This document shows positions 17,699-61,126 of a DNA stretch of 64,000 nucleotides, one piece after another. The stretch is from Methanospirillum hungatei JF-1. GTDB taxonomy: Archaea > Halobacteriota > Methanomicrobia > Methanomicrobiales > Methanospirillaceae. The DNA is taken from contig NC_007796.1 in assembly GCF_000013445.1 (NCBI RefSeq), positions 1,338,936-1,402,935 of the forward strand, in the 5' to 3' direction. The position numbers and the translations under genes were made by a program. How positions within the stretch are numbered: the first letter of the stretch is position 1; every line of letters begins with the position of its first letter. The notes under the pieces were generated by a model. The model searched no databases. It saw only the letters and a program-made list of their open reading frames with translations, and had not been told where the DNA came from.

Positions 17699-19282
17699 AT
17701 GAGGTTCTTCAACACTGCCGGACCTGTCAATTGCCAGGATCATTATTGCCTGCCTCCATTAAGCCGTTTTAATCTCACAGAAATTCTCTCACTCATCGCA
17801 CAAAAAAATATTTTGTTCTTCATGCCCCACGACAGACCGGGAAGACCTCATGTTTTTTGGTCTCAGGGATCAGTTGAATCAGGAAGGAACATACTCTGCA
17901 TTCTATGTATATGTCGAAATGGGACAAACTGCCAGAGGTGATGTTGGCAAAGGGATGAAAGCAAACCAATACTCACAGAACTTGCATTTCAGGCAGAACG
18001 GACCCTGGGGGATACTACATATCGAAACAGGATCTCCGAAATCATTGCAGAATCCGGAGAAGATGCTGCCCTGAAATCTCTGTTATCAGACTGGTGTAAA
18101 AGACTAAAATTGCCTCTTGTTCTCTGTATTGATGACGTTGATGCCTTTGTTGGTGATACCCTGGTTTCTCTTCTCCGTCAGATCCGTTCAGGGTACCCGG
18201 AAAGAGCAACTGAACTTCCATCCTCAATTATTCTCTGTGATGTTCATGATGTCCGTGATTATCGGATTCATTCTGACCGGGAAAAGGAGATTGTCACCGG
18301 TGGGAGGGCCTTCAATATTAAGGCAAAGTCACTCCGTCTGGGAAATTTTTCTGAAGAAGAAACAAAAACGCTCCTTCAACAACACACCACAGAAACCGGT
18401 CAGATCTTTGAATATGATGCTATTTCAGCCATATGGGCCCTAACGAAAGGACAGCCATGGCTCGTGAATGCCTTAGCATATAAAGTCTGCTTTGAACTCC
18501 CGATGGGAAAAACCGGGCAAATCATATTACACTGGATCAGGTCATCGACGAAAAAGAACGTCTCATCAAACGGCGGGACACACACCTTGCCCAGCTTGTA
18601 GATAAACTCAAAGAGGAACGGGTTCGACGGGTTATCGAACCTATGCTCACTGGGGAAGTCTTTGAACAGGACTTCAGGCCTGATGATGTCGTAGACCTGA
18701 TAGATCTTGGCCTTATAACATAGTAAATAGCCGGTGCTATCAAGATTGCAAACCCCATCTATGGAGATCATCCCCCGTGAACTCAGCTGGAGAACACAGA
18801 CTGGCGTGACCATCGAAACCGCCTGATATGTTGAACAGAACGGGAGACTCCTTCTTTCAAAATTTATCAGTGCATTTACCCAGTTTTTCCGGGAACATTC
18901 AGGGAGCTGGCTTGAGATCACTGAATATAAAGAGGCCGGGTCGAATCAGTTACTCCAGGCATTCCTGCAACGGATTGTCAATGGTGGCGGGCAGATAACA
19001 CGGGAATATGGTCTTGGAATGGGTAGGACTGATCTCTTCATTCTCTGGCTTCTTTCTAATGGAACAAACCAGCGGTTTGTTATCGAATGTAAGATTCAGA
19101 GGGGAACACGAGAAAAAACGATAGAGGCAGGAGTAACTCAGGTAACCAGATATACAGACACCTGCAGAGCAGAAGGGGTCTATCTTGTAATTTTTGACCC
19201 TTCGGATAAACCATGGGATGATAAGATATTCACGGAAATAAGATCGAAAGACCCGTATCAGGTTGAAATTTTTGGTATGTGA
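17699..19282 (+). pseudogene. Degenerate AAA ATPase with C-terminal PD-(D/E)XK domain
   Basis: Translation pieces in shifting frames rebuild one protein of about 520 residues: MRFFNTAGPVNCQDHYCLPP start, Walker A HAPRQTGKTSC (near 17810), Walker B LVLCIDDVDAF (near 18120), KGQPWLVNALAYKVCFE (near 18450), then a C-terminal nuclease-like part with GMGRTDLFILW and FVIECKI. At least four frame changes occur (near 17800, 17860, 17965 and 18515) plus stops near 18718 and 18825. The gene is dead. It is of the kind often found in several copies in Methanospirillum-like genomes. Its 3' end overlaps the next, convergent gene by 25 bases. Confidence 0.82.
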
Positions 19283-20826
19283 AACGAGTACTCATCAATA
19301 TTTCTCGTTTCAGGATCAAAAACAATCCCAATTTCTATTAATTGTCTTTTATCAGAACGGTATTTCTCAGAATATCCCCGGTTCTGTATTTGCTCGAGAG
19401 GACTTAAGTCTCCGGTTTTGTCGATCCCTTTCACCTTAAATTCAAAGATCCAGGTATATGATGCAGTTTTAACCGTCAGATCAATGCGACCCTTGTTTGT
19501 GGTATCTTCCGGGATTATCTCATATCCAAGACTTGCAAGGTATGAATAGACCAGACTTGCCCAGTACCCTTCAAATTGTGCAAGAGGATTTTTTCTAAAC
19601 CTGTCATGAGGAATCGAAGCCAAAAAAGATTTTAATTGGCGATGAAACCCATCAACATTCCCAGAACCAAGAAGTTTTCGGATATCAGGAAATGATAGGG
19701 GTGTAGCATCCTTTCTGAGAAGATTGAGAATGCTTTTATTAAATGATTCTTTCACTTCCCTATTCGGGAAACCAAGGGTATACCATGTTCCTTCCTCCGG
19801 ATTACTGGTCCAGGATTTGATCGTAAGATACCCTGCCTGAAAGAGAAGGGTTTCAAGCCGGATCTGGTCAGGATCAAAAGACCCAAGCAGATCATCCCCG
19901 GCTATGAGCCCTTCATATTCTGCCGGGATTCTTGGCTGTGATTGCCAGAGTTTTAAAAAAAAAGATGGCGTTCCGGTTTCAAACCAATATGGCTTGAAAA
20001 GATCTGAATCAAAATAGAGCAGAATATCAAAGGGATTATATACAGACTCACCAGTCCAGGAATACCCGTTATACCATTCACGGACGAGTTTTGGATCACA
20101 TATTGCAAACCATGACGAGAAATCATCCCTGATATTTTCTTCTGTATACCCACAGAGTGAAGAATACCTTCGGTCAAGCGTGATGTCTTTCAAATTATTT
20201 AGTCCGGAAAAAATCCCGGTTTTAACGAATTTAGATACTCCGGTGAGAAAGACAAATCGAATATGAGAATCCAGAGGTTTGATTACCGCATAAAAATCAC
20301 GCAGGACGTCACGCATCTCAGCCGCCCGGGATGGATCCTCAAGAACATCGAGAATTGGTTTGTCATACTCATCCACCAGGATTACTACCTGTTCTCCGGT
20401 TTTTTCGTGAATTTCCCGGATGATGGCAGAGAATCGCCCACCTATGGTTGTTTCAAAAGGCTCAAAATCCCATTCCCTTGCCCAGGCAGAGAGAATCTCA
20501 TGGATCCGGGTTTTTAACTCCTCTCCAGTTCGGGGAGAAGATAATGACCAGTCAATTTTCAGAACCGGGTTTTTTCTGCTCCAGTCCCAGGCAGCATCCG
20601 GCGTATCCAGATATAACCCCGAGAACAAACACCGTTCTCCGGAAAAAGCACAATGAAATGTATCTATCAATAGACTTTTTCCAAACCGACGGGGACGGGA
20701 GAGGAAATAATATTTACCTGATCTGACAAGTGAAGATATAAAAGAGGTTTTATCAACATACACATACCCACCGGTCCTGATTTCAACAAAAGATTGGATA
20801 CCGATGGGTAATTTCAGGTCAGTCAT
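19258..20826 (-). CDS. AAA-ATPase-like protein with PD-(D/E)XK nuclease-like domain
   Basis: 522 residues, intact. N-terminal AAA-ATPase-like domain (PF09820 type): YVYVDKTSFISSLV, then a P-loop variant SRPRRFGKSLL at residues 43-53 and Walker B VVILVDEYDKPIL near 147-159. The C-terminal domain (DUF1703/PDDEXK_9 type) carries the pattern GRIDL followed by FEFKV, the Asp and Glu-x-Lys of a PD-(D/E)XK site. These proteins are numerous and variable in archaea and gut bacteria; their role is not settled. A dead paralogue lies at 47187-49126. Confidence 0.88.
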   Translation of the reverse strand: MTDLKLPIGIQSFVEIRTGGYVYVDKTSFISSLVRSGKYYFLSRPRRFGKSLLIDTFHCAFSGERCLFSGLYLDTPDAAWDWSRKNPVLKIDWSLSSPRTGEELKTRIHEILSAWAREWDFEPFETTIGGRFSAIIREIHEKTGEQVVILVDEYDKPILDVLEDPSRAAEMRDVLRDFYAVIKPLDSHIRFVFLTGVSKFVKTGIFSGLNNLKDITLDRRYSSLCGYTEENIRDDFSSWFAICDPKLVREWYNGYSWTGESVYNPFDILLYFDSDLFKPYWFETGTPSFFLKLWQSQPRIPAEYEGLIAGDDLLGSFDPDQIRLETLLFQAGYLTIKSWTSNPEEGTWYTLGFPNREVKESFNKSILNLLRKDATPLSFPDIRKLLGSGNVDGFHRQLKSFLASIPHDRFRKNPLAQFEGYWASLVYSYLASLGYEIIPEDTTNKGRIDLTVKTASYTWIFEFKVKGIDKTGDLSPLEQIQNRGYSEKYRSDKRQLIEIGIVFDPETRNIDEYSFHIPKIST

Positions 20827-20996: not shown

Positions 20997-22223
20997 ATGG
21001 GCACATATTCAAAAATTAAAGGATTATCTGACGTTGATATTTCAGGAAAGACAGTTCTGCTCAGGGTTGATTTTAATTCACCAATCGATCCCCAGGCCGG
21101 AGTTATCCTTGATGATAAGCGCTTTCGTGAAATTCTGTATACGATAAAAGCATTGGACAAGGCAAAAACCGTCATCATCACTCATCAGAGCAGACCTGGA
21201 AAAAAGGATTTTACTTCTCTTGTCTCCCATGCTCACCGACTTTCAGAACTCCTGGGAAAAGAGGTCAGATTTGTTGATGATATCTTTGGAACATGTGCCC
21301 GGGATGCTGTCCGCAATGCAAAAGTTGGCGATGTTATCATGCTGGAAAATGTCCGGTTCAATGCAGAAGAGAACCTGAAACTATCCGGTGAGGAGTCAGC
21401 AAAGACCGTTCTTGTGAAAAACCTTGCACGAATGGGCGATCTCTTCATCAATGATGCATTTGGTACTGCACACCGGTCCCAGCCAACCATTGTCGGCCTT
21501 CCGGAAGTGCTCCCTGCCATAGCCGGACTCCTTATGGAACGGGAAGTTGAAAACCTCTCACGAGTTTTCAGTGGTGCTCCCCGGCCGGTGACATTCATCC
21601 TTGGCGGAACAAAGGTTGATGATTCAATCGATGTTGCCAGACATGTACTCACGAACGGCATCGCTGATAACGTCCTTGCGGTCGGTGTGGTTGCTAACAT
21701 TTTCCTTGCCGCCAAAGGGTACAGCATCGGAAAACCTTCGATGGACCTGATTGAACAACTCGGATACATTGGACAGATCGAAATCGCGAAAGATATCCTT
21801 TCCAGGTTCGGTGAAAAGATCGTCGTTCCTGAACATGTCGCGATAAAAAAAGAGGGTGCCAGGGTTGAGATGCATGTCCGTGATATCCCATCAGACTGCC
21901 CTATTCTGGATCTTGGATCTGAAGGGCTCATACCCTGCCTTGATGTTATTAAAAGATCCCGCACCGTTGTATTAAATGGTCCGGCCGGTCTTTTTGAAGA
22001 GTCTGATTACTCATTCGGAACATATGAAATAATTAAAGCTGCAGCAGAAGCTGAGTTTTCCGTCGTCGGGGGAGGACATACTGCCGCTGTCATTGAAAAG
22101 ATGGGATATGATAGAAAGTTCACCCACATCTCAACCGGTGGCGGTGCATGCATAGAATTTTTAACCGGCAAGAAACTACCAGCTATAGCTGCCCTGGAAA
22201 AAAGTGCTGAACGGTTTACATAG
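20997..22223 (+). CDS. pgk: Phosphoglycerate kinase
   Basis: 408 residues, the archaeal length. Converts 3-phosphoglycerate and ATP to 1,3-bisphosphoglycerate, here mainly in gluconeogenesis. Motifs: RVDFNSPID (substrate loop, near 23), HQSRPGKKDF, ENVRFNAEENLK, FINDAFGTAHR, TFILGGTKVDDSI and the C-terminal VVGGGHTAAVIEKMG and STGGGACIEFLTG nucleotide-binding segments. The ATG at 20997 follows GGGGAAGT. The VOC protein and the Cas1-like gene follow on the same strand. Confidence 0.97.
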   Translation: MGTYSKIKGLSDVDISGKTVLLRVDFNSPIDPQAGVILDDKRFREILYTIKALDKAKTVIITHQSRPGKKDFTSLVSHAHRLSELLGKEVRFVDDIFGTCARDAVRNAKVGDVIMLENVRFNAEENLKLSGEESAKTVLVKNLARMGDLFINDAFGTAHRSQPTIVGLPEVLPAIAGLLMEREVENLSRVFSGAPRPVTFILGGTKVDDSIDVARHVLTNGIADNVLAVGVVANIFLAAKGYSIGKPSMDLIEQLGYIGQIEIAKDILSRFGEKIVVPEHVAIKKEGARVEMHVRDIPSDCPILDLGSEGLIPCLDVIKRSRTVVLNGPAGLFEESDYSFGTYEIIKAAAEAEFSVVGGGHTAAVIEKMGYDRKFTHISTGGGACIEFLTGKKLPAIAALEKSAERFT

Positions 22224-22287: not shown

Positions 22288-23205
22288 ATGAATGATACAA
22301 CCATTACCCTTGATCACATTGCACTACAGGTAACAAACCTGGAGCGAAGTATCCGCTTTTACCAGGATATCCTGCACATGCAGGTCTATGGTCCGGTCCA
22401 TCTTGGAGCGCTCTCCACAGGCGGGAGGATTTTAGGAAAAGTCGCCGGCGGTCATGGTCTTTTAAAAGGGATCCTTGGCAGCATCTCATCACGGGCTCTT
22501 CGTGATCAGTATACCGATGTGGCTCTTCTTTCATCTTCTGGGAGATCATATGATATTCTGCTTGTCCAGGAACGATACCCGGAAACAAACGCTACCAGAT
22601 CGGTTGACGGAAATACCATATTCGGATTTTCATGCTTTCTTTCTTTAGCAGTTGATTCAGAGATCCTTGGTTGGGATCTTCATCAGGCTGAAGCTGATTT
22701 TTCCTGGGGAGATCCAGGTCTTGATGGAACTATCTTCACACAGGATTGCCCCAATCACTCCCTGTATGTCCGCGATCCTGATGACCGGCTCATTGAATTA
22801 ATACCGAACAGAAGTGATGATGGATCGGCCCCCTTCATCACCGGCCTGAATTCAATCACTCTGCATGTGACCCATCCGGATAAAAGCAAACAATTCTATA
22901 GTGAAAAACTTGGAATGAAGGTTGAATCTGATATCACGAGATCAGGCCAAGGGAAACGATTTATCAGGCTGGAAAGCACAGAGGGAAAAATCTGCATTAT
23001 CCTGTATGGTCTGACAAAACCAGATGGAAATCCCATAGAGGCGGGAGGATACGGACTTGACCATTTCGCAATAACCGGATGTCAGGGAGCAGGAGAGAAA
23101 TCCACAGATGCAATAGATATCTGGATGGATCCAGAGAAACTATCCGAACATACCGGTTCCTCATATATCAGGGATTATGACGGGTACTGGATCGAATGTA
23201 TCTGA
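22288..23205 (+). CDS. Two-domain VOC (glyoxalase/dioxygenase fold) protein
   Basis: 305 residues with two vicinal-oxygen-chelate modules. Module 1 starts LDHIALQVTNLERSIRFYQDIL (first ligand His10) and ends YVRDPDDRLIELIP; module 2 starts NSITLHVTHPDKSKQFYSEKL and ends YIRDYDGYWIECI. Ligand-like His and Glu are found in the expected places (His10, Glu near 170, His near 194, Glu304). Such proteins are often called ring-cleaving dioxygenase-like, but the substrate here is unknown. A possible TATA (GATATAAAAAAGG, near 22227) lies between pgk and this gene, so it may have its own promoter. The Cas1-like gene starts 33 bases later. Confidence 0.82.
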   Translation: MNDTTITLDHIALQVTNLERSIRFYQDILHMQVYGPVHLGALSTGGRILGKVAGGHGLLKGILGSISSRALRDQYTDVALLSSSGRSYDILLVQERYPETNATRSVDGNTIFGFSCFLSLAVDSEILGWDLHQAEADFSWGDPGLDGTIFTQDCPNHSLYVRDPDDRLIELIPNRSDDGSAPFITGLNSITLHVTHPDKSKQFYSEKLGMKVESDITRSGQGKRFIRLESTEGKICIILYGLTKPDGNPIEAGGYGLDHFAITGCQGAGEKSTDAIDIWMDPEKLSEHTGSSYIRDYDGYWIECI

Positions 23206-23237
23206 ATTTATGCTTTACCAGTTTTTTGAGATGATCA

Positions 23238-24170
23238 ATGACGATATCATGGAGAGTAGTGGGAGGATTTGGAGCCCACATTAAATCAAACCGGACTGAA
23301 ATCACTATTCAGCATAAGGGAAAAATTACTGATATACCAATCAAAGACCTCTCTCATTTTCTTCTCATCGGTGGTCATACCATCCAGACATCAACGATAA
23401 CATCCCTGGTAAAAGAAGGAGTTTTTATCTCATTTTGTGAGTCTGATGGTGAGCCGGTTGGATATATTTCACCCTATGATTATTCTCTTTTCAAGGAGAT
23501 TCAGAATCTGCAAAAGACTGCAGCTCCGTATTCATATGCCCTTGCCTGTGCAAATGAATCAATTAAGTCCAGGATTCTTGCAATAGAAAAATATGCAGAA
23601 GAGATTGGACCGGAGATTCTTTTCTCCGGAGAACTTGACATCCTTACAGGGTATGCGAAGGAACTGGAAAACATGGTTCTTATTGAAGAACTGCGGAGAA
23701 TAGAACAATTGGTCCGGGATATGTACTATGAAATCCTTGGTCGACTCATCAGTCCGACGTATCTTTTTAAAAGAAGAACCAGTCGTCCGTACCTTGACCC
23801 GGTAAACGCTATTTTCTCTTTTGGGTATGGAATGCTCTCATCAGCATGTACACGGGCTGTCATCGGTGGACATTTGGATCCTGGCCATGGGTATTTAAAC
23901 AGAGGAAATCAGGCCCTTGTTCAGGATCTTATGAACTGCTGGAAACCGAAGATGATTGACAACCATGCGATTGGATTTCTGAGATCCGGCAGGTTACATC
24001 AGAATGGCTATGAACGAACAAAAGATCGGTGTATTCTACATGATGAGGTTATTGAAGAATTAATTCATCTTTTTTCAAAATCCATTCAGGAAGAACTTAT
24101 CAATACACAGATAGATGTGCTCATTCAGTCATTGCGAGGAGAAGCACAGTTCTCAATTATCAAACCATAG
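23238..24170 (+). CDS. Stand-alone Cas1-family protein with altered active site
   Basis: 310 residues with the full Cas1 plan: N-terminal beta domain (IPIKDLSHFLLIGGHTIQT, then GVFISFCESDGEPVGY at 61-76) and an alpha-helical C-terminal domain with RRIEQLVRDMYYEIL, LDPVNAIFSFGYGMLSSA, HLDPGHGYLN and ALVQDLMNCWKP. In active Cas1 the metal ligands are Glu, His, Asp and Asp/Glu. Here Glu156 and Asp230 are kept, but the His position reads Asn221 (GYLN in place of GFLH) and the last acid reads Asn233 (DLMN in place of DLME). No cas2, other cas gene or CRISPR array is in the window. Integrase activity is therefore doubtful; a structural or DNA-binding role is possible. Confidence 0.85.
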   Translation: MTISWRVVGGFGAHIKSNRTEITIQHKGKITDIPIKDLSHFLLIGGHTIQTSTITSLVKEGVFISFCESDGEPVGYISPYDYSLFKEIQNLQKTAAPYSYALACANESIKSRILAIEKYAEEIGPEILFSGELDILTGYAKELENMVLIEELRRIEQLVRDMYYEILGRLISPTYLFKRRTSRPYLDPVNAIFSFGYGMLSSACTRAVIGGHLDPGHGYLNRGNQALVQDLMNCWKPKMIDNHAIGFLRSGRLHQNGYERTKDRCILHDEVIEELIHLFSKSIQEELINTQIDVLIQSLRGEAQFSIIKP

Positions 24171-24364: not shown

Positions 24365-25726
24365 TTAAATAAAATTAGAAATACAGGATAATATTTCCTT
24401 TTCAAATCCTTTGGCAATTGATTCGTCCGTGGATTCCACGTATAATCTGACAAGAGGTTCGGTCCCGGACGGACGAATAAGAGCCCAGGCATCTTTCCGA
24501 TCTATTCTGATCCCATCCACCTGATTCAAAGAGTCCCGTGAAAATTTTTCTCGCACTGCTGTCAGGATTTCGGAGGCTTTATCGGTGTGGAATTTATGTT
24601 TTAACATTATTGAAGGGGGGAGTGAATCGACGAGGGTGGAAAGCGGTTGTTTTTTCGTTGCAAGAAGAAGAACCATCATTGCTGCCGTCATACCCCCATC
24701 ACGGCAGAACTGATGATCCGGATAGATAAGGCCACCATTTCCTTCTCCTCCAAAAGCAACTGGTTTTCCTTCGGCAATGAGTGCCCGCATCCGTCTGGCA
24801 ACATAAATACTACCAACTGCGGTATAATCAACCGTGCATCCATGAGGTGCGATGACCGTCTCGATAAGTCTGGACGTGCTGACCGGTGTTACCAGAATTC
24901 CCTTCTTTTGTGAACAGATATACTCAGCAATGAGTGCAAACTCCTTATTTTCTTCAACGAACCGCCCCTTGTCATCGATAAAGACAGCACGGTCCGCATC
25001 CCCGTCATGGGCAACACCAAATGCTGCTCCGGTCGAAACAACCATCTCTGCAAGCGGGGCAAGACCCTCAATGGACGGTTCTGGATCACGTGCCGGGAAG
25101 TTACCATCAGGATATGCATTCAAAGTGAAGATCTTACACCCGATGGACTGTAATATTTCAGCCGTTGTCCGGTATGCAGCGCCACACCCGGGATCAATCG
25201 CAACCATGATGCCTTCACCTATCTTTTCTGGGACTTTTTTCACAACACCGGCGATATATTTGGATACCAGATCCCCTTCGGGAATGACGACACCAACATC
25301 TTTCCATTCTTTCAGGTCAAAGTTGTAAGAAAAGACCCGTTCTTCTATCTCGATAGATGCCTCATCATCCATCTCGGTCCCGTCTTTTTCAATGACCTTG
25401 ACTCCGTTGTAGGCTCCCGGATTATGTGATGCGGTAATGACTACTCCGGCATCATACCGGTTCATAACGATATACTGAAGTGCGGGAGTTGGAAGGATCC
25501 CACAGTCTATAACATTACAGCCCGTTGCCATAAGGCCTGCTTTCATTGCATTAATTAATGCAGGCCCGGAGGTTCTGGTATCCATGCCGACTGCAATGGT
25601 TCCCGGTCTCATAGAGCCGACAGCCATTCCGATCTTCATGACCAGTTCAGGAGTGATTAGTTCTCCAACGATACCACGAACTCCGTTTGTCCCAAATAAC
25701 TGTTTTTTCTTTTCAGTCATATGCAT
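24365..25726 (-). CDS. glmM: Phosphoglucosamine mutase / phosphohexomutase
   Basis: 453 residues of the alpha-D-phosphohexomutase family. The phosphoserine loop TASHNP has Ser100; the metal loop is HDGDADRAVFIDD; the sugar loop is GGEGNGGLIYPD; the phosphate loop is RPSGTEPLVRLYVES. Archaeal members of this type convert glucosamine-6-phosphate to glucosamine-1-phosphate, and some also act on mannose or glucose phosphates, so specificity is inferred. It overlaps the upstream gene by 14 bases; the ATG at 25720 (MTEKKK) is an alternative start. Confidence 0.9.
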   Translation of the reverse strand: MHMTEKKKQLFGTNGVRGIVGELITPELVMKIGMAVGSMRPGTIAVGMDTRTSGPALINAMKAGLMATGCNVIDCGILPTPALQYIVMNRYDAGVVITASHNPGAYNGVKVIEKDGTEMDDEASIEIEERVFSYNFDLKEWKDVGVVIPEGDLVSKYIAGVVKKVPEKIGEGIMVAIDPGCGAAYRTTAEILQSIGCKIFTLNAYPDGNFPARDPEPSIEGLAPLAEMVVSTGAAFGVAHDGDADRAVFIDDKGRFVEENKEFALIAEYICSQKKGILVTPVSTSRLIETVIAPHGCTVDYTAVGSIYVARRMRALIAEGKPVAFGGEGNGGLIYPDHQFCRDGGMTAAMMVLLLATKKQPLSTLVDSLPPSIMLKHKFHTDKASEILTAVREKFSRDSLNQVDGIRIDRKDAWALIRPSGTEPLVRLYVESTDESIAKGFEKEILSCISNFI

Positions 25727-26321
25727 CTTCTTTTGTTTCGTTTTGCATGCCGGGATCTTCCTCCGGTTCTGCTCCAGAATCCTTTTTTCTGCGTTTTTCC
25801 TGCTTTTCCTTCAGCTGATCTTCACGAATCTTCAGGAGACGTGATGAAGCCAGAGCAACATGACGCATCACCTCAGTTACCCGGTCTTCCACTTCAATCT
25901 CATCATCAACATCAATAGATGTGCTCTCTATCTCCATGAGAAACCGGGCAACTTCACTTACCTCAAACAATAAATCATCAAGTTCTTCAGGTGTATAAAA
26001 CCCGCACATTGCTCCATAGAGAAATGTTGCACCAGCCTTACTCACCTTTTTCTTAAATGAACTTCGTGCCTGGTTGACTGCCTGTGGCGTATATGTCCCA
26101 GTCATGAAAGGAACCAGTTCAGGGAGATTTTTCCCGATATATGTCATTTCAGCCCCTGAGGAAGTCTGAAAATCAGCACATAACCGTGATATCGCCCATT
26201 CTCTGGCGGTGATGAAGGTCCTCTTCCTCAGGAATTGGTTTACCTGCAGATATGATGCGCCGTCTACCTTCCTGAACTTGTGATACTTGGTAGGATCCCG
26301 TGAACGGAATGGTGTTGCCAT
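25713..26321 (-). CDS. Archaeal DUF5806-like protein
   Basis: 202 residues, soluble, no signal peptide. It resembles a conserved archaeal family of unknown function (DUF5806, by recognition): KYHKFRKVDGASYLQVNQFL near 12-31, then FITAREWAISRLCADFQT, and a Lys/Glu-rich tail from about 165 that is probably disordered. It overlaps glmM, so the two are co-transcribed, which links it loosely to sugar-phosphate or cell-envelope metabolism. No catalytic motif seen. Confidence 0.65.
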   Translation of the reverse strand: MATPFRSRDPTKYHKFRKVDGASYLQVNQFLRKRTFITAREWAISRLCADFQTSSGAEMTYIGKNLPELVPFMTGTYTPQAVNQARSSFKKKVSKAGATFLYGAMCGFYTPEELDDLLFEVSEVARFLMEIESTSIDVDDEIEVEDRVTEVMRHVALASSRLLKIREDQLKEKQEKRRKKDSGAEPEEDPGMQNETKEDAYD

Positions 26322-49723: not shown

Positions 49724-50110
49724 ATGTACAAACGTGATGATGCAGTATCACCGGTTATCGGTGTTATCCTGATGGTGGCGATCACCGTTATTCTCGCTGC
49801 AGTGATTGCAGCTTTCGTATTTGGTATGGCTGGGAACGTCCAGAGCACAAAAAATGTGGCGGCTGTGGCAGAGCAGGTAAACGCAACTGGGATTGTTGTT
49901 ACGTATCATGGTGGAAAAGACCATCCTGATGTAGCTAATTTATCAATTGGCTTTGCAGGTGCATCACCAACTATCGTAAAATCTTATCCCGATTTGAAGG
50001 TTGGAGATGTGTTCCACTCGGTAGCTGGCACATCAGGTAAAGACCGTGTTGTTGCAATTGCCAAATTTAATGATGGAAAAGAGCAGGTAATACTGGATAC
50101 AACTGTATAA
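49724..50110 (+). CDS. Archaeal type IV pilin-like protein, copy 1
   Basis: 128 residues. The N-terminus DDAVSPVIGVILMVAITVIL is the archaeal prepilin signature: a short charged leader, a cut expected near DDA|VSPV by prepilin peptidase, then a hydrophobic helix (about 8-36) that forms the fibre core. The head domain (40-128) is beta-rich. An AGGAGGTG site precedes it. Copy 2 follows 169 bases later. Role: adhesion or another surface fibre; it could also be a minor subunit. Confidence 0.88.
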   Translation: MYKRDDAVSPVIGVILMVAITVILAAVIAAFVFGMAGNVQSTKNVAAVAEQVNATGIVVTYHGGKDHPDVANLSIGFAGASPTIVKSYPDLKVGDVFHSVAGTSGKDRVVAIAKFNDGKEQVILDTTV

Positions 50111-50279
50111 CCTTACTTTTTTTCAATTATATTAGCTCAAATTTACTCATATTATGAGAATATCTTAAAAAAATAACTCAAATAAACTAAATTAAAAAAA
50201 ATGTAAAGATTTTTTGCTACTATACTCGCGAGAAATAATTATGAGACACGTAAATTAATTCAAAAAAGGGAGCATTAAC

Positions 50280-50666
50280 ATGTATAATCATAATGATGCA
50301 GTATCACCGGTTATCGGCGTTATCCTTATGGTGGCCATCACAGTTATTCTCGCTGCAGTGATAGCAGCATTCGTATTTGGTATGGCTGGAGGTGTTCATA
50401 GTGCAAAAAATGTTGCAGCTGTTGCTGAACAGGTTAACTCAACAGGAATTGTTGTGACATATCATGGAGGAAAAGATGTGGGATATGTAACGAATTTGTC
50501 AATTACATGGCCAGGAGCTGCCCCCACTATGGTTGCATCCGCCCCTAATTTGAAGGTTGGCCAATCGTTCCATTCAATGACTGGAACATCCGGTAAAGAT
50601 CGTGTTATTGTTATTGCAAGATTTAACGATGAAAAAGAGCAAGTAATACTTGATACCACAGTCTGA
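50280..50666 (+). CDS. Archaeal type IV pilin-like protein, copy 2
   Basis: 128 residues, the same length as copy 1 and close to it: the helix is identical from DDAVSPVIGV to AFVFGMAG, and the tail ends EQVILDTTV in both. Differences cluster in the head (for example PDVANLSIGFAG against GYVTNLSITWPG), the exposed face. A GGGAG site precedes it. A T-rich stretch after copy 1 (50114-50124) and an own AT-rich upstream region suggest separate transcription. Confidence 0.88.
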   Translation: MYNHNDAVSPVIGVILMVAITVILAAVIAAFVFGMAGGVHSAKNVAAVAEQVNSTGIVVTYHGGKDVGYVTNLSITWPGAAPTMVASAPNLKVGQSFHSMTGTSGKDRVIVIARFNDEKEQVILDTTV

Positions 50667-51021: not shown

Positions 51022-51957
51022 TTATATGTGAGCATTGAAGTATGCATGATTACAGGGATATTTGTGATATGAATCCCAGAAATCATGTACTGCTATCCCA
51101 AAATAATGTGGAAGAACTCCAAGAGCTTCGATTCCTGCATGTCCGCGACTTCCAAATATCCCGTATAATGTCAGTAGTTTGGTTGAGGCAACATGGAGCC
51201 AGGATTTCTTTTTACCCACTTTCATGCCCGTTTCATCTGTATGGACGACGGGTGATTCAATCAGCAATTCTCTAATTTTATCCGTGAATCCCTCAAGATT
51301 CCCTCCAACCCGTTCAACCATATTGATAACAGTACCTGGACTGATCGAACATCCATGAAGATCTGAAAGGATATGTGTGAGCCTTTTTACTGGGATCAAT
51401 TGATAAACAGAGAGATAAGCAACATATGCAGTTAAACGAACGCCGTATTGGACTTTTTGAGTGACGTGTCTCGGAAACTCTCCATTTGTGACAGTATGGC
51501 AATCAGGGCAGTGGTAAGAAAAGAGACGGTGAGCAATCCATAGGATAGTTGTTGGAGGGAGTTCAGCTTCCTGTCTTTCATCAAGGAATTGTAAAAGCTT
51601 AGTTTGAACTGTGGCACCGCATCTTGAACAAACTTTTGGAGCATGTTCTATTATTATGTCGGGCTTTTCAGCTGGCGATAATGTGGTTCCGATATGCCCA
51701 ATCTGCCCTCCAGGGTTTTTTCCACTCCGAACACGACTATTCGGTATTTTCTTGTGATTTAATGGATTCTTTGATGGGGGAATGCTACTATTCGAACTAT
51801 TGAGGTTGGAACGATTTTCTAATTCTCGATTCCGGTTTTCTAGTTCATGGTTACGTTCTCGTAATAATTGAATTATTGATATTAAACGAGCGATGAGTTC
51901 GATAATGATTGGATGAGATTTTCGGATATGATCCTGTTCCTCATCACTAAATTCCAT
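51022..51957 (-). pseudogene. IS66-family transposase, 3' truncated
   Basis: 311 residues. N-terminal coiled coil (RERNHELENRNRELENR), the SIPPSKN segment, zinc-finger-like CSRCG and CPDCH, and the core LIESPVVHTDETGMKV with the first catalytic Asp, then the second in GIAVHDFWDSYHKY. A full transposase would continue from NAH into LLREL and the third acidic residue, about 130 further residues; here the frame stops at NAHI. The first two acids are present and the third is lost, so it should be inactive. Confidence 0.85.
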
Positions 51958-53193: not shown

Positions 53194-54228
53194 TTAGATC
53201 TTCAGCTTTTTTATCTCTTCTGCTGATAATCCGGTAGCTTTTACAATATACTCATCTTCCAGCCCTAATTTAATGAGATTTCGGGCAATATTTCGTGCCT
53301 CTTCTAACTTACCTTTCTCGATTCCTTTCTCGATTCCTTTCTCGATTCCTTTCTCGATTCCCTCCTCTTTCCCTTTCTCAATGCCCTCTTCAACCCCAAT
53401 CGTATACCATTTTTTACTGATCTTCTGAGTAACGCTCTCTATCAAATTTTCCACCCTCTCCTTGCTCTTGGTATCCCGGATATATTTCTGATGCAACTGT
53501 GTATATAACTCCATTGTCGCTGAGAGAATAATATCCTTTGTTTGCTCATCCATTACTCCTTTTTCTTCAAACGTTCCGGTGATTGTTGTAATCTGCTCAA
53601 TGTCCTGTAACACATCCTGAACAATTGCATCAAATTCTTCCTGGTTCAGGTTTTTCCGTCTGCAGATATGATCAAACCTCTTCCTATACTTCACGAGAAC
53701 CAGCGGAATTACCAGATAGAGATCCATTTCGCCAAGTTCACATGCGGAGTATGCATACAACCTGAAAACCGGAACAGTATAATGTACTTCCGATTCATTC
53801 GGAAAGATGATTTTTACTTTCAGGTCATCCCGAATTCGTTTGTGCTCCTCAAGATATATCACAACCTGATGAGGGATCGATATAATCCGGGAATCATCAT
53901 CATCCATCTGTGACCGTGATGCACCGATGAGATATCCGTATTTTACCATACGTAAATCCATCATCCCATCATGTTCAGTCTGGATTTCAATGTGAAAGAG
54001 GGGATCAGGACCGGTTCCATCATGCACGGCAAGGACAATGTCGGGAAGATGACGGGAAAAGCCAGGGTGGGATATGAATTCTGATGAGACACGGATGATT
54101 TCTGCGGTTTCTTTGTTTATTTGAATGGAAAAAATCCGGCAGATAAAATCAAGTAATGCCTGATCAGATGCATCAAATAAGAACTTGGCAGTCTCATCGA
54201 TCAGAGCACGGGAGTTTTCATGGCTCAC
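53194..54228 (-). CDS. Rpn-family PD-(D/E)XK nuclease, array copy 1 (most divergent)
   Basis: 344 residues, start ATG at 54228 (MSHENSRAL). Rpn proteins are transposase-derived nucleases that promote RecA-independent recombination in E. coli and can act as toxins in phage defence. Nuclease core: Asp63 in HLPDIVLAV and Glu81-Ile-Gln83 in HIEIQTEHDG. C-terminal tail: GIEK tetrapeptides (five or so) followed by a distinct end, DEYIVKATGLSAEEIKKLKI, where the others end REAL. It differs from copies 2-7 at many places and is the probable oldest unit. Intact. Confidence 0.88.
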   Translation of the reverse strand: MSHENSRALIDETAKFLFDASDQALLDFICRIFSIQINKETAEIIRVSSEFISHPGFSRHLPDIVLAVHDGTGPDPLFHIEIQTEHDGMMDLRMVKYGYLIGASRSQMDDDDSRIISIPHQVVIYLEEHKRIRDDLKVKIIFPNESEVHYTVPVFRLYAYSACELGEMDLYLVIPLVLVKYRKRFDHICRRKNLNQEEFDAIVQDVLQDIEQITTITGTFEEKGVMDEQTKDIILSATMELYTQLHQKYIRDTKSKERVENLIESVTQKISKKWYTIGVEEGIEKGKEEGIEKGIEKGIEKGIEKGKLEEARNIARNLIKLGLEDEYIVKATGLSAEEIKKLKI

Positions 54229-54342
54229 CTGAATGAGTGTGTTCAGGGGGCATTTGAAATTTGTGAAATAGTGGCGAAATTATGCCGGAATGAATCATCA
54301 ATAAATGAAGGAATTATGATGGAAAGGGAACAGAACTTTAAT

Positions 54343-55326
54343 TTACAACGCTTCCCGTTTGATAGTATCGAGCTCATCTGGAGTAAGGCCTGTGGCTTTC
54401 AGAATTACTTCATCAGCAGTTCCGATCATTAACAGATTTTTTGCTACGATCTTAACACCTTCGGCAATACCTTCACGTTTTCCTTCTTTAATCCCGATCA
54501 TATGCCATTTTTTACTGATCTTCTGTGTGACGCTCTCTATCATATTCTCTACCCTCTCCTTACTCTTACTATCACGGATATATTTCTGATGCAGCTGTGT
54601 ATATAACTCAATTGTCGCTGAGAGAATAATATCCTTTGTTTTCTCATCCATTACACCATTTTCTTCATACGTTCCTGTAATTGTTGTGATCTGTTCAATG
54701 TCCTGCAATACATCCTGAACAAGTGCATCAAACTCTTCCTGGTTCAGGTTTTTCCGTCTGCAGATTATATCAAACCTCTTTCTGTACTTTACCAGAACCA
54801 GCGGAATTACCAGATAGAGATCCATTTCGCTAAGTTCATATGCTGAGTATGCATACAACCTGAAAACCGGAACAATATAATCTACTTCAGATTCATCAGG
54901 GAAAATGATCTTTACTTTCAGTTCATCACGTATCCGCTTATGCTCCTCAAGGTATATCACAACCTGATGTGGGATTGAGATAATCCGGGTATCATTATCA
55001 TCCATCTCTGACCGTGACGCACCGATGAGGTATCCGTATTTCACCATTCGGAGATCCATCATCCCGTCATGTTCAGTCTGGATTTCGATGTGAAAGAGGG
55101 GATCAGGACCGGTTTTGTCATGCACGGCAAGGACGATGTCGGGGAGATGGCGGGAAAAGCCAGGGTGAGAGATGTATTCTGAAGAGACACGGGTGATTTC
55201 TGCAGTTGCTTTGTCTATGTGAATCGAAAAAATCCTGCTGATAAAATCGATTATTGCATGATCTGGTGCATCAAATAAGAATTTGGCAGTCTCATCTATT
55301 GCAGCACGGGAGTTATCTTGACTCAC
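54343..55326 (-). CDS. Rpn-family PD-(D/E)XK nuclease, array copy 2
   Basis: 327 residues, start GTG at 55326 (MSQDNSRAAI). Core acids Asp63, Glu81 and Gln83 intact. It has the shortest repeat tail of the array: IGIKEGKREGIAEG with no EGRQ unit. Upstream is the shared 115-base leader. Internal ATG at 54543 (MIESVTQKIS) lies after a GGAGAGGGTAGAG stretch, so a C-terminal product of 66 residues is possible. Confidence 0.9.
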   Translation of the reverse strand: MSQDNSRAAIDETAKFLFDAPDHAIIDFISRIFSIHIDKATAEITRVSSEYISHPGFSRHLPDIVLAVHDKTGPDPLFHIEIQTEHDGMMDLRMVKYGYLIGASRSEMDDNDTRIISIPHQVVIYLEEHKRIRDELKVKIIFPDESEVDYIVPVFRLYAYSAYELSEMDLYLVIPLVLVKYRKRFDIICRRKNLNQEEFDALVQDVLQDIEQITTITGTYEENGVMDEKTKDIILSATIELYTQLHQKYIRDSKSKERVENMIESVTQKISKKWHMIGIKEGKREGIAEGVKIVAKNLLMIGTADEVILKATGLTPDELDTIKREAL

Positions 55327-55440
55327 CCGAATGAGTATGTTCAGGGGGCATTTGAAATTTGTGAAATAGTGGCGAAATTATGCCGGAATGAATCATCAAT
55401 AAATGAAGGAATTATAATGGAAAGGGAACAGAATTTTAAT

Positions 55441-56460
55441 TTACAACGCTTCCCGTTTGATAGTATCGAGCTCATCTGGAGTAAGGCCTGTGGCTTTCAG
55501 AATTACTTCATCTGAGGTTCCGATCATTAACAGATTTTTTGCTACGATCTTAACACCTTCGGCAATACCTTCACGTTTTCCTTCTTGTCTTCCTTCTTGT
55601 CTTCCTTCCTGCCTTCCCTCCTCAATCCCGATCATATGCCATTTTTTACTAATCTTCTGTGTGACGCTTTCTATCATATTCTCCACCCTCTCCTTACTCT
55701 TCCTATCACGGATATATTTCTGATGCAACTGTGTATATAACTCAATTGTCGCTGAGAGAATAATATCCTTTGTTTTCTCATCCATTACACCTTTTTCTTC
55801 ATACCTTCCTGTAATTGTGGTGATCTGTTCAATGTCCTGCAATACATCCTGAACAAGTGCATCAAACTCTTCCTGGTTCAGGTTTTTCCGTCTGCAGATT
55901 ATATCAAACCTCTTTCTGTACTTCACAAGTATCAGCGGAATTACCAGATAGAGATCCATTTCGCTAAGTTCATATGCTGAGTATGCATACAACCTGAAAA
56001 CCGGAACAATATAATCTACTTCAGATTCATCGGGAAAAATGATCTTTACTTTCAGTTCATCACGTATCCTCCTATGCTCCTCAAGGTATATCACAACCTG
56101 ATGTGGGATTGAGATAATCCGGGTATCATCCTCATCCATCTGTGACCGTGACGCACCGATGAGGTATCCGTATTTCACCATTCGAAGATCCATCATCCCG
56201 TCATGTTCAGTCTGGATTTCGATGTGAAAGAGGGGATCAGGAACGGTTTTGTCATGCACGGCAAGGACGATGTCGGGGAGATGGCGGGAAAAGCCAGGGT
56301 GGGATATGTATTCTGAAGAGGCACGGGTGATTTCTGCAGTTGCTTTGTCTATGTGAATCGAAAAAATCCGGCTGATAAAATCGATTATTGCATGATCTGG
56401 TGCATTAAATAAGAACTTGGCAGTCTCATCTATTGCAGCACGGGAGTTATCTTTACTCAC
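55441..56460 (-). CDS. Rpn-family PD-(D/E)XK nuclease, array copy 3
   Basis: 339 residues, start GTG at 56460. Core intact (Asp63, Glu81, Gln83). The tail has three EGRQ units before EGKREGIAEG. Against copy 5 I count roughly ten differences in 339 residues by eye, including FLFNAP for FLFDAP and KTVPDP for KTGPEP. A possible internal start lies at 55677 (residue 262) behind GGAGAGGGTGGAG. Confidence 0.9.
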   Translation of the reverse strand: MSKDNSRAAIDETAKFLFNAPDHAIIDFISRIFSIHIDKATAEITRASSEYISHPGFSRHLPDIVLAVHDKTVPDPLFHIEIQTEHDGMMDLRMVKYGYLIGASRSQMDEDDTRIISIPHQVVIYLEEHRRIRDELKVKIIFPDESEVDYIVPVFRLYAYSAYELSEMDLYLVIPLILVKYRKRFDIICRRKNLNQEEFDALVQDVLQDIEQITTITGRYEEKGVMDEKTKDIILSATIELYTQLHQKYIRDRKSKERVENMIESVTQKISKKWHMIGIEEGRQEGRQEGRQEGKREGIAEGVKIVAKNLLMIGTSDEVILKATGLTPDELDTIKREAL

Positions 56461-56574
56461 CCGAATGAGTCTGTTCAGGGGGCATTTGAAATTTGTAAAA
56501 TGGTGGCGAAATTACGCCGGAATGAATCATCAATAAATGAAGGAATTGTGAAAAAAAAGGAACATAACTTTAAT

Positions 56575-57582
56575 TTACAACGCTTCCCGTTTGATAGTAT
56601 CAAGCTCATCTGGAGTAAGGCCTGTGGCTTTCAGAATTACTTCATCTGCGGTTCCGATCATTAACAGATTTTTTGCTACGATCTTAACACCTTCAGCAAT
56701 GCCTTCTTCTTTACCTTTCTCGATTCCTTTCTGAATGCCCTCCTCAATCCCGATCATATGCCATTTTTTACTGATCTTCTGTGTGACGCTTTCTATCATA
56801 TTCTCCACCCTCTCCTTACTCTTCCTATCACGGATATATTTCTGATGCAACTGTGTATATAACTCAATTGTCGCTGATAGAATAATATCCTTTGTTTTCT
56901 CATCCATTACACCTTTTTCTTCAAAGTTACCGGTAATTGTGGTGATCTGTTCAATGTCCTGCAATACATCCTGAACAAGTGCATCAAACTCTTCCTGGTT
57001 CAGGTTTTTCCGTCTGCAGATTATATCAAACCTCTTTCTGTACTTCACAAGTATCAGCGGAATTACCAGATAGAGATCCATTTCGCTAAGTTCATATGCT
57101 GAGTATGCATACAACCTGAAAACCGGAACAATATAATCTACTTCAGATTCATCGGGAAAAATGATCTTTACTTTCAGTTCATCACGTATCCGCTTATGCT
57201 CCTCAAGGTATATCACAACCTGATGTGGGATTGAGATAATCCGAGTATCATTTTCATCCATTTGTGACCGTGACGCACCGATGAGGTATCCGTATTTCAC
57301 CATTCGAAGATCCATCATCCCGTCATGTTCAGTCTGGATTTCGATGTGAAAGAGGGGCTCAGGACCGGTTTTGTCATGCACGGAAAGGACGATGTCGGGG
57401 AGATGGCGGGAAAAGCCAGGGTGGGATATGTATTCTGAAGAGGCACGGGTGATTTCTGCAGTTGCTTTGTCTATGTGAATCGAAAAAATCCTGCTGATAA
57501 AATCGATTATTGCATGATCTGGTGCATCAAATAAGAACTTGGCAGTCTCATCTATTGCAGCACGGGAGTTATCTTTACTCAC
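56575..57582 (-). CDS. Rpn-family PD-(D/E)XK nuclease, array copy 4
   Basis: 335 residues, start GTG at 57582. Core intact. The tail is of the other type, EGIQKGIEKGKEEGIAEG, as in copy 6 and similar to copy 1, although the rest of the protein groups with copies 3 and 5. This mosaic suggests exchange of the repeat segment between copies. Confidence 0.9.
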   Translation of the reverse strand: MSKDNSRAAIDETAKFLFDAPDHAIIDFISRIFSIHIDKATAEITRASSEYISHPGFSRHLPDIVLSVHDKTGPEPLFHIEIQTEHDGMMDLRMVKYGYLIGASRSQMDENDTRIISIPHQVVIYLEEHKRIRDELKVKIIFPDESEVDYIVPVFRLYAYSAYELSEMDLYLVIPLILVKYRKRFDIICRRKNLNQEEFDALVQDVLQDIEQITTITGNFEEKGVMDEKTKDIILSATIELYTQLHQKYIRDRKSKERVENMIESVTQKISKKWHMIGIEEGIQKGIEKGKEEGIAEGVKIVAKNLLMIGTADEVILKATGLTPDELDTIKREAL

Positions 57583-57681
57583 CCGAATGAGTCTGTTCAG
57601 GGGGCATTTGAAATTTGTGAAATGGTGGTGAAATTACGCCGGAATGAATTATGATGGAAAAACCCGGGTAGGAGGTCTAAT

Positions 57682-58701
57682 TTACAACGCTTCCCGTTTG
57701 ATAGTATCGAGCTCATCTGGAGTAAGGCCTGTGGCTTTCAGAATTACTTCATCAGCAGTTCCGATCATTAACAGATTTTTTGCTACGATCTTAACACCTT
57801 CGGCAATACCTTCACGTTTTCCTTCTTGTCTTCCTTCTTGTCTTCCTTCCTGCCTTCCCTCCTCAATCCCGATCATATGCCATTTTTTACTGATCTTCTG
57901 TGTGACGCTTTCTATCATATTCTCTACCCTCTCCTTACTCTTCCTATCACGTATATATTTCTGATGCAGCTGTGTATATAACTCAATTGTCGCTGAGAGA
58001 ATAATATCCTTTGTTTTCTCATCCATTACACCTTTTTCTTCATAAGTTCCTGTAATTGTTGTGATCTGTTCAATGTCCTGCAATACATCCTGAACAAGTG
58101 CATCAAACTCTTCCTGGTTCAGGTTTTTCCGTCTGCAGATTATATCAAACCTCTTTCTGTACTTCACAAGTATCAGCGGAATTACCAGATAGAGATCCAT
58201 TTCGCTAAGTTCATATGCTGAGTATGCATACAACCTGAAAACCGGAATATTATAATCTACTTCAGATTCATCGGGAAAAATGATCTTTACTTTCAGTTCA
58301 TCACGTATCCGCTTATGCTCCTCAAGGTATATCACAACCTGATGTGGGATTGAGATAATCCGGGTATCATTTTCATCCATCTGTGACCGTGACGCACCGA
58401 TGAGGTATCCGTATTTCACCATTCGAAGGTCCATCATCCCGTCATGTTCAGTCTGGATTTCGATGTGAAAGAGGGGCTCAGGACCGGTTTTGTCATGCAC
58501 GGAAAGGACGATGTCGGGGAGATGGCGGGAAAAGCCAGGGTGGGATATGTATTCTGAAGAGGCACGGGTGATTTCTGCAGTTGCTTTGTCTATGTGAATC
58601 GAAAAAATCCGGCTGATAAAATCGATTATTGCATGATCTGGTGCATCAAATAAGAACTTGGCAGTCTCATCTATTGCAGCACGGGAGTTATCTTTACTCA
58701 C
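57682..58701 (-). CDS. Rpn-family PD-(D/E)XK nuclease, array copy 5
   Basis: 339 residues, start GTG at 58701. Core intact. The tail again has three EGRQ units and EGKREGIAEG, as in copy 3. The sequence just past its stop (AAAACCCGGGTAGGAGGTCT, 57658-57677) differs from that after copies 2-4 and 7 but matches that after copy 6, so downstream spacers come in two types. Confidence 0.9.
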   Translation of the reverse strand: MSKDNSRAAIDETAKFLFDAPDHAIIDFISRIFSIHIDKATAEITRASSEYISHPGFSRHLPDIVLSVHDKTGPEPLFHIEIQTEHDGMMDLRMVKYGYLIGASRSQMDENDTRIISIPHQVVIYLEEHKRIRDELKVKIIFPDESEVDYNIPVFRLYAYSAYELSEMDLYLVIPLILVKYRKRFDIICRRKNLNQEEFDALVQDVLQDIEQITTITGTYEEKGVMDEKTKDIILSATIELYTQLHQKYIRDRKSKERVENMIESVTQKISKKWHMIGIEEGRQEGRQEGRQEGKREGIAEGVKIVAKNLLMIGTADEVILKATGLTPDELDTIKREAL

Positions 58702-58820
58702 CCGAATGAGTCTGTTCAGGGGGCATTTGAAATTTGTAAAATGGTGGCGAAATTACGCCGGAATGAATCATCAATAAATGAAGGAATTGTGATGGGAAAA
58801 ACCCGGGTAGGAGGTCTAAT

Positions 58821-59840
58821 TTACAACGCTTCCCGTTTGATAGTATCAAGCTCATCTGGAGTAAGGCCTGTGGCTTTCAGAATTACTTCATCAGCGGTTC
58901 CGATCATTAACAGATTTTTTGCTACGATCTTAACACCTTCAGCAATGCCTTCTTCTTTACCTTTCTCGATTCCTTTCTCGATTCCTTTCTGAATGCCCTC
59001 CTCAATCCCGATCATATGCCATTTTTTACTGATCTTCTGTGTGACGCTTTCTATCATATTCTCCACCCTCTCCTTACTCTTCCTATCACGGATATATTTC
59101 TGATGCAACTGTGTATATAACTCAATTGTCGCTGAGAGAATAATATCCTTTGTTTTCTCATCCATTACACCATTTTCTTCATACGTTCCTGTAATTGTGG
59201 TGATCTGTTCAATGTCCTGCAATACATCCTGAACAAGTGCATCAAACTCTTCCTGATTCAGGTTTTTCCGTCTGCAGATTATATCAAACCTCTTTCTGTA
59301 CTTCACAAGTATCAGCGGAATTACCAGATAGAGATCCATTTCGCTAAGTTCATATGCTGAGTATGCATACAACCTGAAAACCGGAACAATATAATCTACA
59401 TCAGATTCATCAGGGAAAATGATCTTTACTTTCAGTTCATCACGTATCCGCTTATGCTCCTCAAGGTATATCACAACCTGATGTGGGATTGAGATAATCC
59501 GGGTATCATCCTCATCCATCTGTGACCGTGACGCACCGATGAGGTATCCGTATTTCACCATTCGGAGATCCATCATCCCGTCATGTTCAGTCTGGATTTC
59601 GATATGAAAGAGGGGATCAGGACCGGTTTTGTCATGCACGGAAAGGACGATGTCGGGGAGATGGCGGGAAAAACCAGGGTGGGATATGTATTCTGAAGAG
59701 ACACGGATGATTTCTGCAGTTGCTTTGTCTATGTGAATCGAAAAAATCCTGCTGATAAAATCGATTATTGCATGATCTGGTGCATCAAATAAGAACTTGG
59801 CAGTCTCATCTATTGCAGCACGGGAGTTATCTTTACTCAC
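58821..59840 (-). CDS. Rpn-family PD-(D/E)XK nuclease, array copy 6
   Basis: 339 residues, start GTG at 59840. Core intact. The tail EGIQKGIEKGIEKGKEEG has one more GIEK unit (12 bases) than copy 4. One 12-base step is the expected product of slippage and keeps the frame. Confidence 0.9.
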   Translation of the reverse strand: MSKDNSRAAIDETAKFLFDAPDHAIIDFISRIFSIHIDKATAEIIRVSSEYISHPGFSRHLPDIVLSVHDKTGPDPLFHIEIQTEHDGMMDLRMVKYGYLIGASRSQMDEDDTRIISIPHQVVIYLEEHKRIRDELKVKIIFPDESDVDYIVPVFRLYAYSAYELSEMDLYLVIPLILVKYRKRFDIICRRKNLNQEEFDALVQDVLQDIEQITTITGTYEENGVMDEKTKDIILSATIELYTQLHQKYIRDRKSKERVENMIESVTQKISKKWHMIGIEEGIQKGIEKGIEKGKEEGIAEGVKIVAKNLLMIGTADEVILKATGLTPDELDTIKREAL

Positions 59841-59955
59841 CCGAATGAGTCTGTTCAGGGGGCATTTGAAATTTGTGAAATGGTGGTGAAATTACGCCGG
59901 AATGAATTATCAAAAAATGAAGGAATTGTGATAAAAAAAGGAACAGAACTTTAAT

Positions 59956-60951
59956 TTACAACGCTTCCCGTTTGATAGTATCGAGCTCATCTGGTGTAAG
60001 GCCTGTGGCTTTCAGAATTACTTCATCAGCAGTTCCGATCATTAACAGATTTTTTGCTACAATCTTAACACCTTCGGCAATACCTTCACGTTTTCCTTCT
60101 TGTCTCCCCTCCTTAATCCCGATCATATGCCATTTTTTACTGATCTTCTGTGTGACGCTCTCTATCATATTCTCTACCCTCTCCTTACTCTTCCTATCAC
60201 GGATATATTTCTGATGCAACTGTGTATATAACTCAATTGTCGCTGAGAGAATAATATCCTTTGTTTTCTCATCCATTACACCATTTTCTTCATACGTTCC
60301 TGTAATTGTGGTGATCTGTTCAATGTCCTGCAATACATCCTGAACAAGTGCATCAAACTCTTCCTGGTTCAGGTTTTTCCGTCTGCAGATTATATCAAAC
60401 CTCTTTCTGTACTTCACAAGTATCAGCGGAATTACCAGATAGAGATCCATTTCGCTAAGTTCATATGCTGAGTATGCATACAACCTGAAAACCGGAACAA
60501 TATAACCTACTTCAGATTCATCAGGGAAAATGATCTTTACTTTCAGTTCATCACGTATCCTCCTATGCTCCTCAAGGTATATCACAACCTGATGTGGGAT
60601 TGAGATAATTCGGGTATCATTTTCATCCATCTGTGACCGTGACGCACCGATGAGGTATCCGTATTTCACCATTCGGAGATCCATCATCCCGTCATGTTCA
60701 GTCTGGATTTCGATGTGAAAGAGGGGCTTAGGATCGGTTTTGTCATGCACGGCAAGGACGATGTCGGGGAGATGGCGGGAAAAGCCAGGGTGGGATATGT
60801 ATTCTGAAGAGACACGGGTGATTTCTGCAGTTGCTTTGTCTATGTGAATCGAAAAAATCCTGCTGATAAAATCGATTATTGCATGATCTGATGCATCAAA
60901 TAAGAACTTGGCAGTCTCATCTATTGCAGCACGGGAATTATCTTGACTCAC
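59956..60951 (-). CDS. Rpn-family PD-(D/E)XK nuclease, array copy 7 (upstream end)
   Basis: 331 residues from GTG 60951, which aligns with the starts of the other copies (VSQDNSRAAI follows the same CATTCGG). The frame is open 31 codons further to 61044, but that stretch (MSIYLNYFNIYSC) has no counterpart in other copies and is upstream DNA. Core intact; tail with one EGRQ unit. Upstream of about 60985 the shared leader stops, so this marks the border of the array. Confidence 0.88.
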   Translation of the reverse strand: MSQDNSRAAIDETAKFLFDASDHAIIDFISRIFSIHIDKATAEITRVSSEYISHPGFSRHLPDIVLAVHDKTDPKPLFHIEIQTEHDGMMDLRMVKYGYLIGASRSQMDENDTRIISIPHQVVIYLEEHRRIRDELKVKIIFPDESEVGYIVPVFRLYAYSAYELSEMDLYLVIPLILVKYRKRFDIICRRKNLNQEEFDALVQDVLQDIEQITTITGTYEENGVMDEKTKDIILSATIELYTQLHQKYIRDRKSKERVENMIESVTQKISKKWHMIGIKEGRQEGKREGIAEGVKIVAKNLLMIGTADEVILKATGLTPDELDTIKREAL

Positions 60952-61126
60952 CCGAATGAGTATGTTCAGGGGACATTTGAAATTTATGGGATCGTGAGGA
61001 TTTATACAAGAATAAATATTAAAGTAATTGAGATAAATACTCACACTAAATGAGAAGAAAGGGAGAGATTATATCCCAATTTTACCAGATTATATATTAT
61101 ATCCGAAAACATTCTTTCATCATGTA

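Follow-up and report, generated by a model that had tools for sequence, protein, structure and literature searches.

Within the 64-kb stretch of Methanospirillum hungatei JF-1 DNA analyzed here (the window), one gene encodes a full-length Cas1 homologue that, as judged by the published description it matches, belongs to the already known Cas1-solo group 1 (Makarova 2013; Krupovic et al., 2014, PMC4046053); we call it cas1-solo. Three of the four catalytic ligands in this family drift at the protein's average rate. The explanation we favor, with moderate confidence, is that the protein is a domesticated Cas1 pseudo-integrase that would work independently of CRISPR and without metal, by binding or as a scaffold. 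On balance, we also consider it probable that constraint has moved from the catalytic helix face to the opposite face in what would be an order-wide, metal-independent housekeeping Cas1.

A full-length Cas1 with drifting catalytic positions

The product of cas1-solo, read from an ATG start codon, matched Pfam Cas_Cas1 (PF01867) over profile positions 4–282 of 283 (E 3.4e-55; 187.6 bits against a cut-off of 22.3 bits) and TIGR00287 cas1 at 141 bits (cut-off 71.7). In a structure search, its AlphaFold2 model (pLDDT 93.5, pTM 0.92) aligned over its entire length with solved Cas1 and casposase structures at TM-scores of 0.84–0.87, with A. fulgidus Cas1 and M. mazei casposase among the matches. The full-length Cas1 architecture claimed in the initial annotation was thus borne out by profiles, model and structure matches, and both the two-domain sequence and the fold are those of PF01867. 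Alignment gave no support for a C-terminal truncation relative to canonical Cas1.

In alignments to solved Cas1 proteins and to 23 Cas1 sequences of the same phylum, the catalytic Glu, His, Asp and Asp/Glu columns fall on E156, N221, D230 and N233, and these columns read E-H-D-E/D in all 23 phylum sequences. The alignments confirm the earlier observation that Asn occupies both the His and the acid position; as to its conservation, 128 distinct cas1-solo proteins show about 35 drifting ligand combinations, of which Asn221/Asn233 is one; a single combination is complete. The catalytic set is incomplete in 57 of the 58 orthologues, and all four ligands are present in one member (L075/L119). Residues at columns 156, 221 and 233 across the family include Phe, Tyr, Arg, Lys and Ala, and positions 156/221 are Phe/Tyr or Tyr/Tyr in one divergent genus. 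Parsimony counted 14, 17 and 12 changes at 156, 221 and 233 in the 58 orthologues, where the protein mean is 15.1, and 0, 0 and 1 changes in the 23 canonical Cas1 proteins. These three ligands drift at the protein's average rate.

Glu156 and Asp230 had been described as retained ligands. For Asp230 this stands (Glu replaced it once among 20 further cas1-solo loci beyond the 58), but for Glu156 it is doubtful: because parsimony reconstructs H-H-D-E at the base of the family, with Glu156 regained later on the Methanospirillum line, the Glu of this line is probably not an ancestral survivor.

Could the protein be a metal-dependent nuclease or integrase with a ligand set shifted around D230? The near-invariance of that residue, the frequent acid at 233 and the one member with a complete set would fit such an enzyme. 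It is nonetheless unlikely, given that columns 156, 221 and 233 change as fast as the average position and accept aromatic, basic and Ala residues, and that the sole substitute ligand suggested, His217, is highly variable. The initial annotation's proposal for His217 fails on the same evidence, since His occurs there in 9 of 58 orthologues, with 32 inferred changes that put the position at the 97th percentile of variability. Near-invariant D230 and the four-ligand member may leave room for some metal role; for cas1-solo proteins as a family, we strongly infer from the sequences that catalysis has been lost.

Features of the cas1-solo gene and its surroundings in the window (codon numbers refer to the cas1-solo product)
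Feature	Position	Strand	Remarks
cas1-solo group 1 gene	23238..24170	+	310 aa, full-length Cas1 fold (profiles, AlphaFold2, structure search)
Plausible Shine-Dalgarno GAGATGATC	23228..23236	+	Putative, read from the sequence
Trp5 codon	23250..23252	+	Newly invariant
Glu132 codon	23631..23633	+	Newly invariant
Helix 149-169	23682..23744	+	Newly invariant E151, R154, M162, E165, R169, mostly opposite the residue-156 face
Glu156 codon	23703..23705	+	Canonical catalytic Glu column; Glu in only 10/58 orthologues
Basic loop 178-183	23769..23786	+	Consensus (K/R)RRTxR; possible nucleic-acid contact
His217 codon	23886..23888	+	Earlier-proposed substitute ligand; highly variable, rejected
Asn221 codon	23898..23900	+	Canonical catalytic His column; His in 26/58 orthologues
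Asp230 codon	23925..23927	+	Canonical Asp; kept in 58/58 orthologues
Asn233 codon	23934..23936	+	Canonical acid column; Asp or Glu in 43/58 orthologues
Arg264 codon	24027..24029	+	Newly near-invariant
AAA-ATPase_like + PDDEXK_9 protein	19258-20826	-	Upstream of pgk
pgk	20997..22223	+	Upstream neighbour in 12/12 Methanospirillum loci, not order-wide
Two-domain VOC/glyoxalase-like gene	22288..23205	+	32 nt upstream of cas1-solo; genus-level neighbour
Phosphoglucomutase-type and DUF5806 genes	24365..26321	-	Convergent neighbours recurring across the order
Two archaeal type IV pilin genes	49724-50666		Near the IS66-family transposase
IS66-family transposase	51022-51957	-	Apparently partial (profile 1-156 of 284)
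Seven tandem paralogues	53194-61044	-	327-362 aa; six 92-97% mutually identical

Newly invariant residues and a candidate interaction surface

Residues W5, E132, R154, E165, R169 and C265 are invariant in all 58 orthologues and R264 nearly so, and the 20 further loci keep all seven with rare exceptions. Most of the newly invariant positions vary widely in canonical Cas1, which has Gly where R154 stands. On helix 149–169, the average direction of the new invariants lies 192 degrees from that of residue 156 (permutation p 0.027, for few positions), and the surface they would form is drawn from a helical wheel. Positions 165 and 169 vary and are polar in canonical Cas1, which suggests that they are exposed there. 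Because the motif used to select the genome-contig sample covered positions 161–169, conservation in this segment was taken from the 58 and 20 loci only. A role for R154 as a filler of the metal site was dropped, since residues 154 and 156 are separated by ~160 degrees around the helix.

In casposases, target DNA is read by R191/R192 (PMC6977970), two residues that counting places, with uncertainty, in the region of the cas1-solo basic loop. The core of cas1-solo proteins has a median net charge of -5, compared with +3 in canonical Cas1, and this predicted acidity argues against strong DNA binding.

In the domestication we propose, an ancestor of the Methanomicrobiales would have captured a Cas1 and turned it into a housekeeping protein that no longer needed metal-dependent strand transfer. 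We would expect it still to form the Cas1-type dimer and to function through binding: one side would contact nucleic acid around the basic loop, and the other would present a new interaction surface, made up of the rear of the former catalytic helix (E151, R154, E165, R169) together with newly invariant W5, H47, E132 and R264. Such a protein could serve outside CRISPR in a structural or regulatory capacity, by binding DNA or as a scaffold; its binding target and the process that it serves are a matter of hypothesis only.

A more specific role would lie in repair or recombination, where the protein would bind branched DNA or DNA ends and close a gap in the processing of junctions. E. coli Cas1 is cited as acting on branched DNA in a passage of PMC4046053, and 31 genomes of the order yielded no convincing Hjc (PF01870), with matches of only 20–25 bits. 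The gap is not specific, however, because Methanosarcina acetivorans, which lies outside the order, also lacks an Hjc match and cas1-solo was not found outside the order. Given also the acidic core and the lack of repair-gene neighbours order-wide, we regard this role as rather unlikely, if worth keeping in mind.

Distribution, selection and genomic context

A profile built from the 58 orthologues detected cas1-solo, nearly always as one copy, in 217 of 232 Methanomicrobiales genomes overall, in 133 of the 135 that are at least 90% complete and in all 81 that are at least 97% complete. The lowest-scoring member inside the order reached 252 bits; when the phylum was sampled evenly, cas1-solo was not found outside the order and the best outsider scored 159 bits. 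Genome-contig matches that name a lineage in their title are Methanomicrobiales. In a tree, the 58 orthologues group together as a single clade with a long stem (length 1.46, support 95), consistent with vertical inheritance; placement of a CRISPR sister group in this tree is limited by a long-branch warning and by canonical Cas1 proteins partly picked by similarity. A viral origin was also considered and rejected, with no relative among the scanned viral contigs.

NG86 estimates for 16 usable close pairs, some with dS near saturation, gave dN/dS values of 0.06–0.18 in 14 pairs and of 0.28 and 0.31 in the remaining two. Thus, cas1-solo is under purifying selection and is not decaying. Together with ligand drift, these values uphold the earlier suggestion that a Cas1 fold is kept under selection without its normal catalytic set. 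They also bear on the view that the gene is vestigial, a former Cas1 decaying after its function was lost. Such a view would account for the incomplete catalytic sets, and a later paper reports that group 1 was held to be probably vestigial (PMC9755687). Purifying selection contradicts decay, though, as do presence across the whole order, new residues invariant over 58 to 78 proteins, and open, stop-free reading frames, leaving vestigiality highly improbable.

We searched for CRISPR components with Cas1, Cas2 (PF09827) and Cas5 (PF09704) profiles; a Cas6 profile was dropped as a marker after missing even the home genome. The profiles and an array scan agree with the earlier statement that the window holds no cas2, other cas gene or CRISPR: cas1-solo was the sole profile match inside it, the genome's others all lying outside, and the scan found no CRISPR-like array, only 12-bp coding repeats at 53.3–59.0 kb. 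The designation of the gene as an orphan holds by neighbourhood only, since the genome has three other loci at which a CRISPR array lies beside its own intact cas1. These are of types I-D and I-E and one assignable only to general Cas1, and PF09827 Cas2 adjoins two of them. All three carry complete catalytic sets by alignment; therefore, no CRISPR locus needs cas1-solo, although a role in trans may be formally possible.

Given the shared fold, mixed dimers are conceivable, through which cas1-solo might regulate the CRISPR Cas1-Cas2 complex or act on it as a dominant negative; many host genomes, JF-1 included, have a CRISPR Cas1. Yet 34 of the 81 near-complete genomes have no PF09827 Cas2, and in 24 of the 81 cas1-solo is kept as the only Cas1 without such a Cas2; 22 of those 24 also lack PF09704 Cas5. 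We consider a regulatory role in CRISPR very unlikely.

The initial annotation had noted the position behind pgk and a VOC gene. This order recurs in 12 of 12 Methanospirillum loci, but beyond the genus only one locus keeps pgk, and outside Methanospirillum we rejected the two genes as functional partners. Downstream, over 56 loci of which several are on short contigs, the recurrent and convergent genes encode phosphoglucomutase (34/56), an acylphosphatase named from sequence without a profile (27/56), a ~1190-aa protein (23/56) and DUF5806 (18/56). These flanks point to a stable ancestral location and to no particular process, and their stability across the order makes a mobile element at the locus unlikely. 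No partner gene was found.

Several other features were recorded. In four loci of one family (L038, L039, L053, L062) the gene upstream of cas1-solo resembles archaemetzincin by eye (HExxHxxGxxHC), and in some of them an RFC-large-subunit-like gene lies close by. The seven tandem paralogues are separated by spacers of about 100–120 nt and, towards their C-termini, carry EG/EKG-type repeats that vary; no Pfam match was obtained for the three tested, and by eye they resemble Rpn-type PD-(D/E)XK nucleases.

Relation to CRISPR Cas1, casposases and published group 1

Like the Cas1 proteins of CRISPR types I–III, cas1-solo has the full-length fold and core residues R180, N190, D230 and D241. It differs from them in having no array, no Cas2 and no kept catalytic set, N221 and N233 breaking the E-H-D-D/E series of an adaptation integrase, and in forming a separate long-stem clade.

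Casposases (Cas1-solo group 2) resemble cas1-solo in that a Cas1 fold acts without Cas2, and the highest TM-score among the structure matches (0.87) was to a casposase. Casposases, however, have retained the full set of four catalytic residues and are found together with polB in mobile elements (PMC4046053), whereas cas1-solo group 1 lacks both a complete catalytic set and a polB element; its flanks are housekeeping genes, and no polB occurs among the annotated neighbours.

CRISPR components put to other uses than immunity usually have a patchy distribution and an association with mobile elements. If our explanation is right, an order would carry, in nearly all its species, a Cas1 that has become a stable core gene: a pseudo-integrase of CRISPR origin that has a core role in the cell beyond immunity and transposition and is in active use while its cutting site decays.

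With published Cas1-solo group 1 the gene shares its restriction to Methanomicrobiales, its location away from CRISPR and its incomplete active site. Krupovic et al. (2014) found the group only in this order and without horizontal transfer, reported no member with a full active site, considered its members unlikely to be active endonucleases and set the family aside (PMC4046053). Our literature search, which covered few subscription papers, found no functional study of the group. To the published picture the present analysis adds near-universal presence, selection, rates of ligand drift, independence of Cas2 and the new invariants, which offer mutants and surfaces for testing the function of Cas1-solo group 1.
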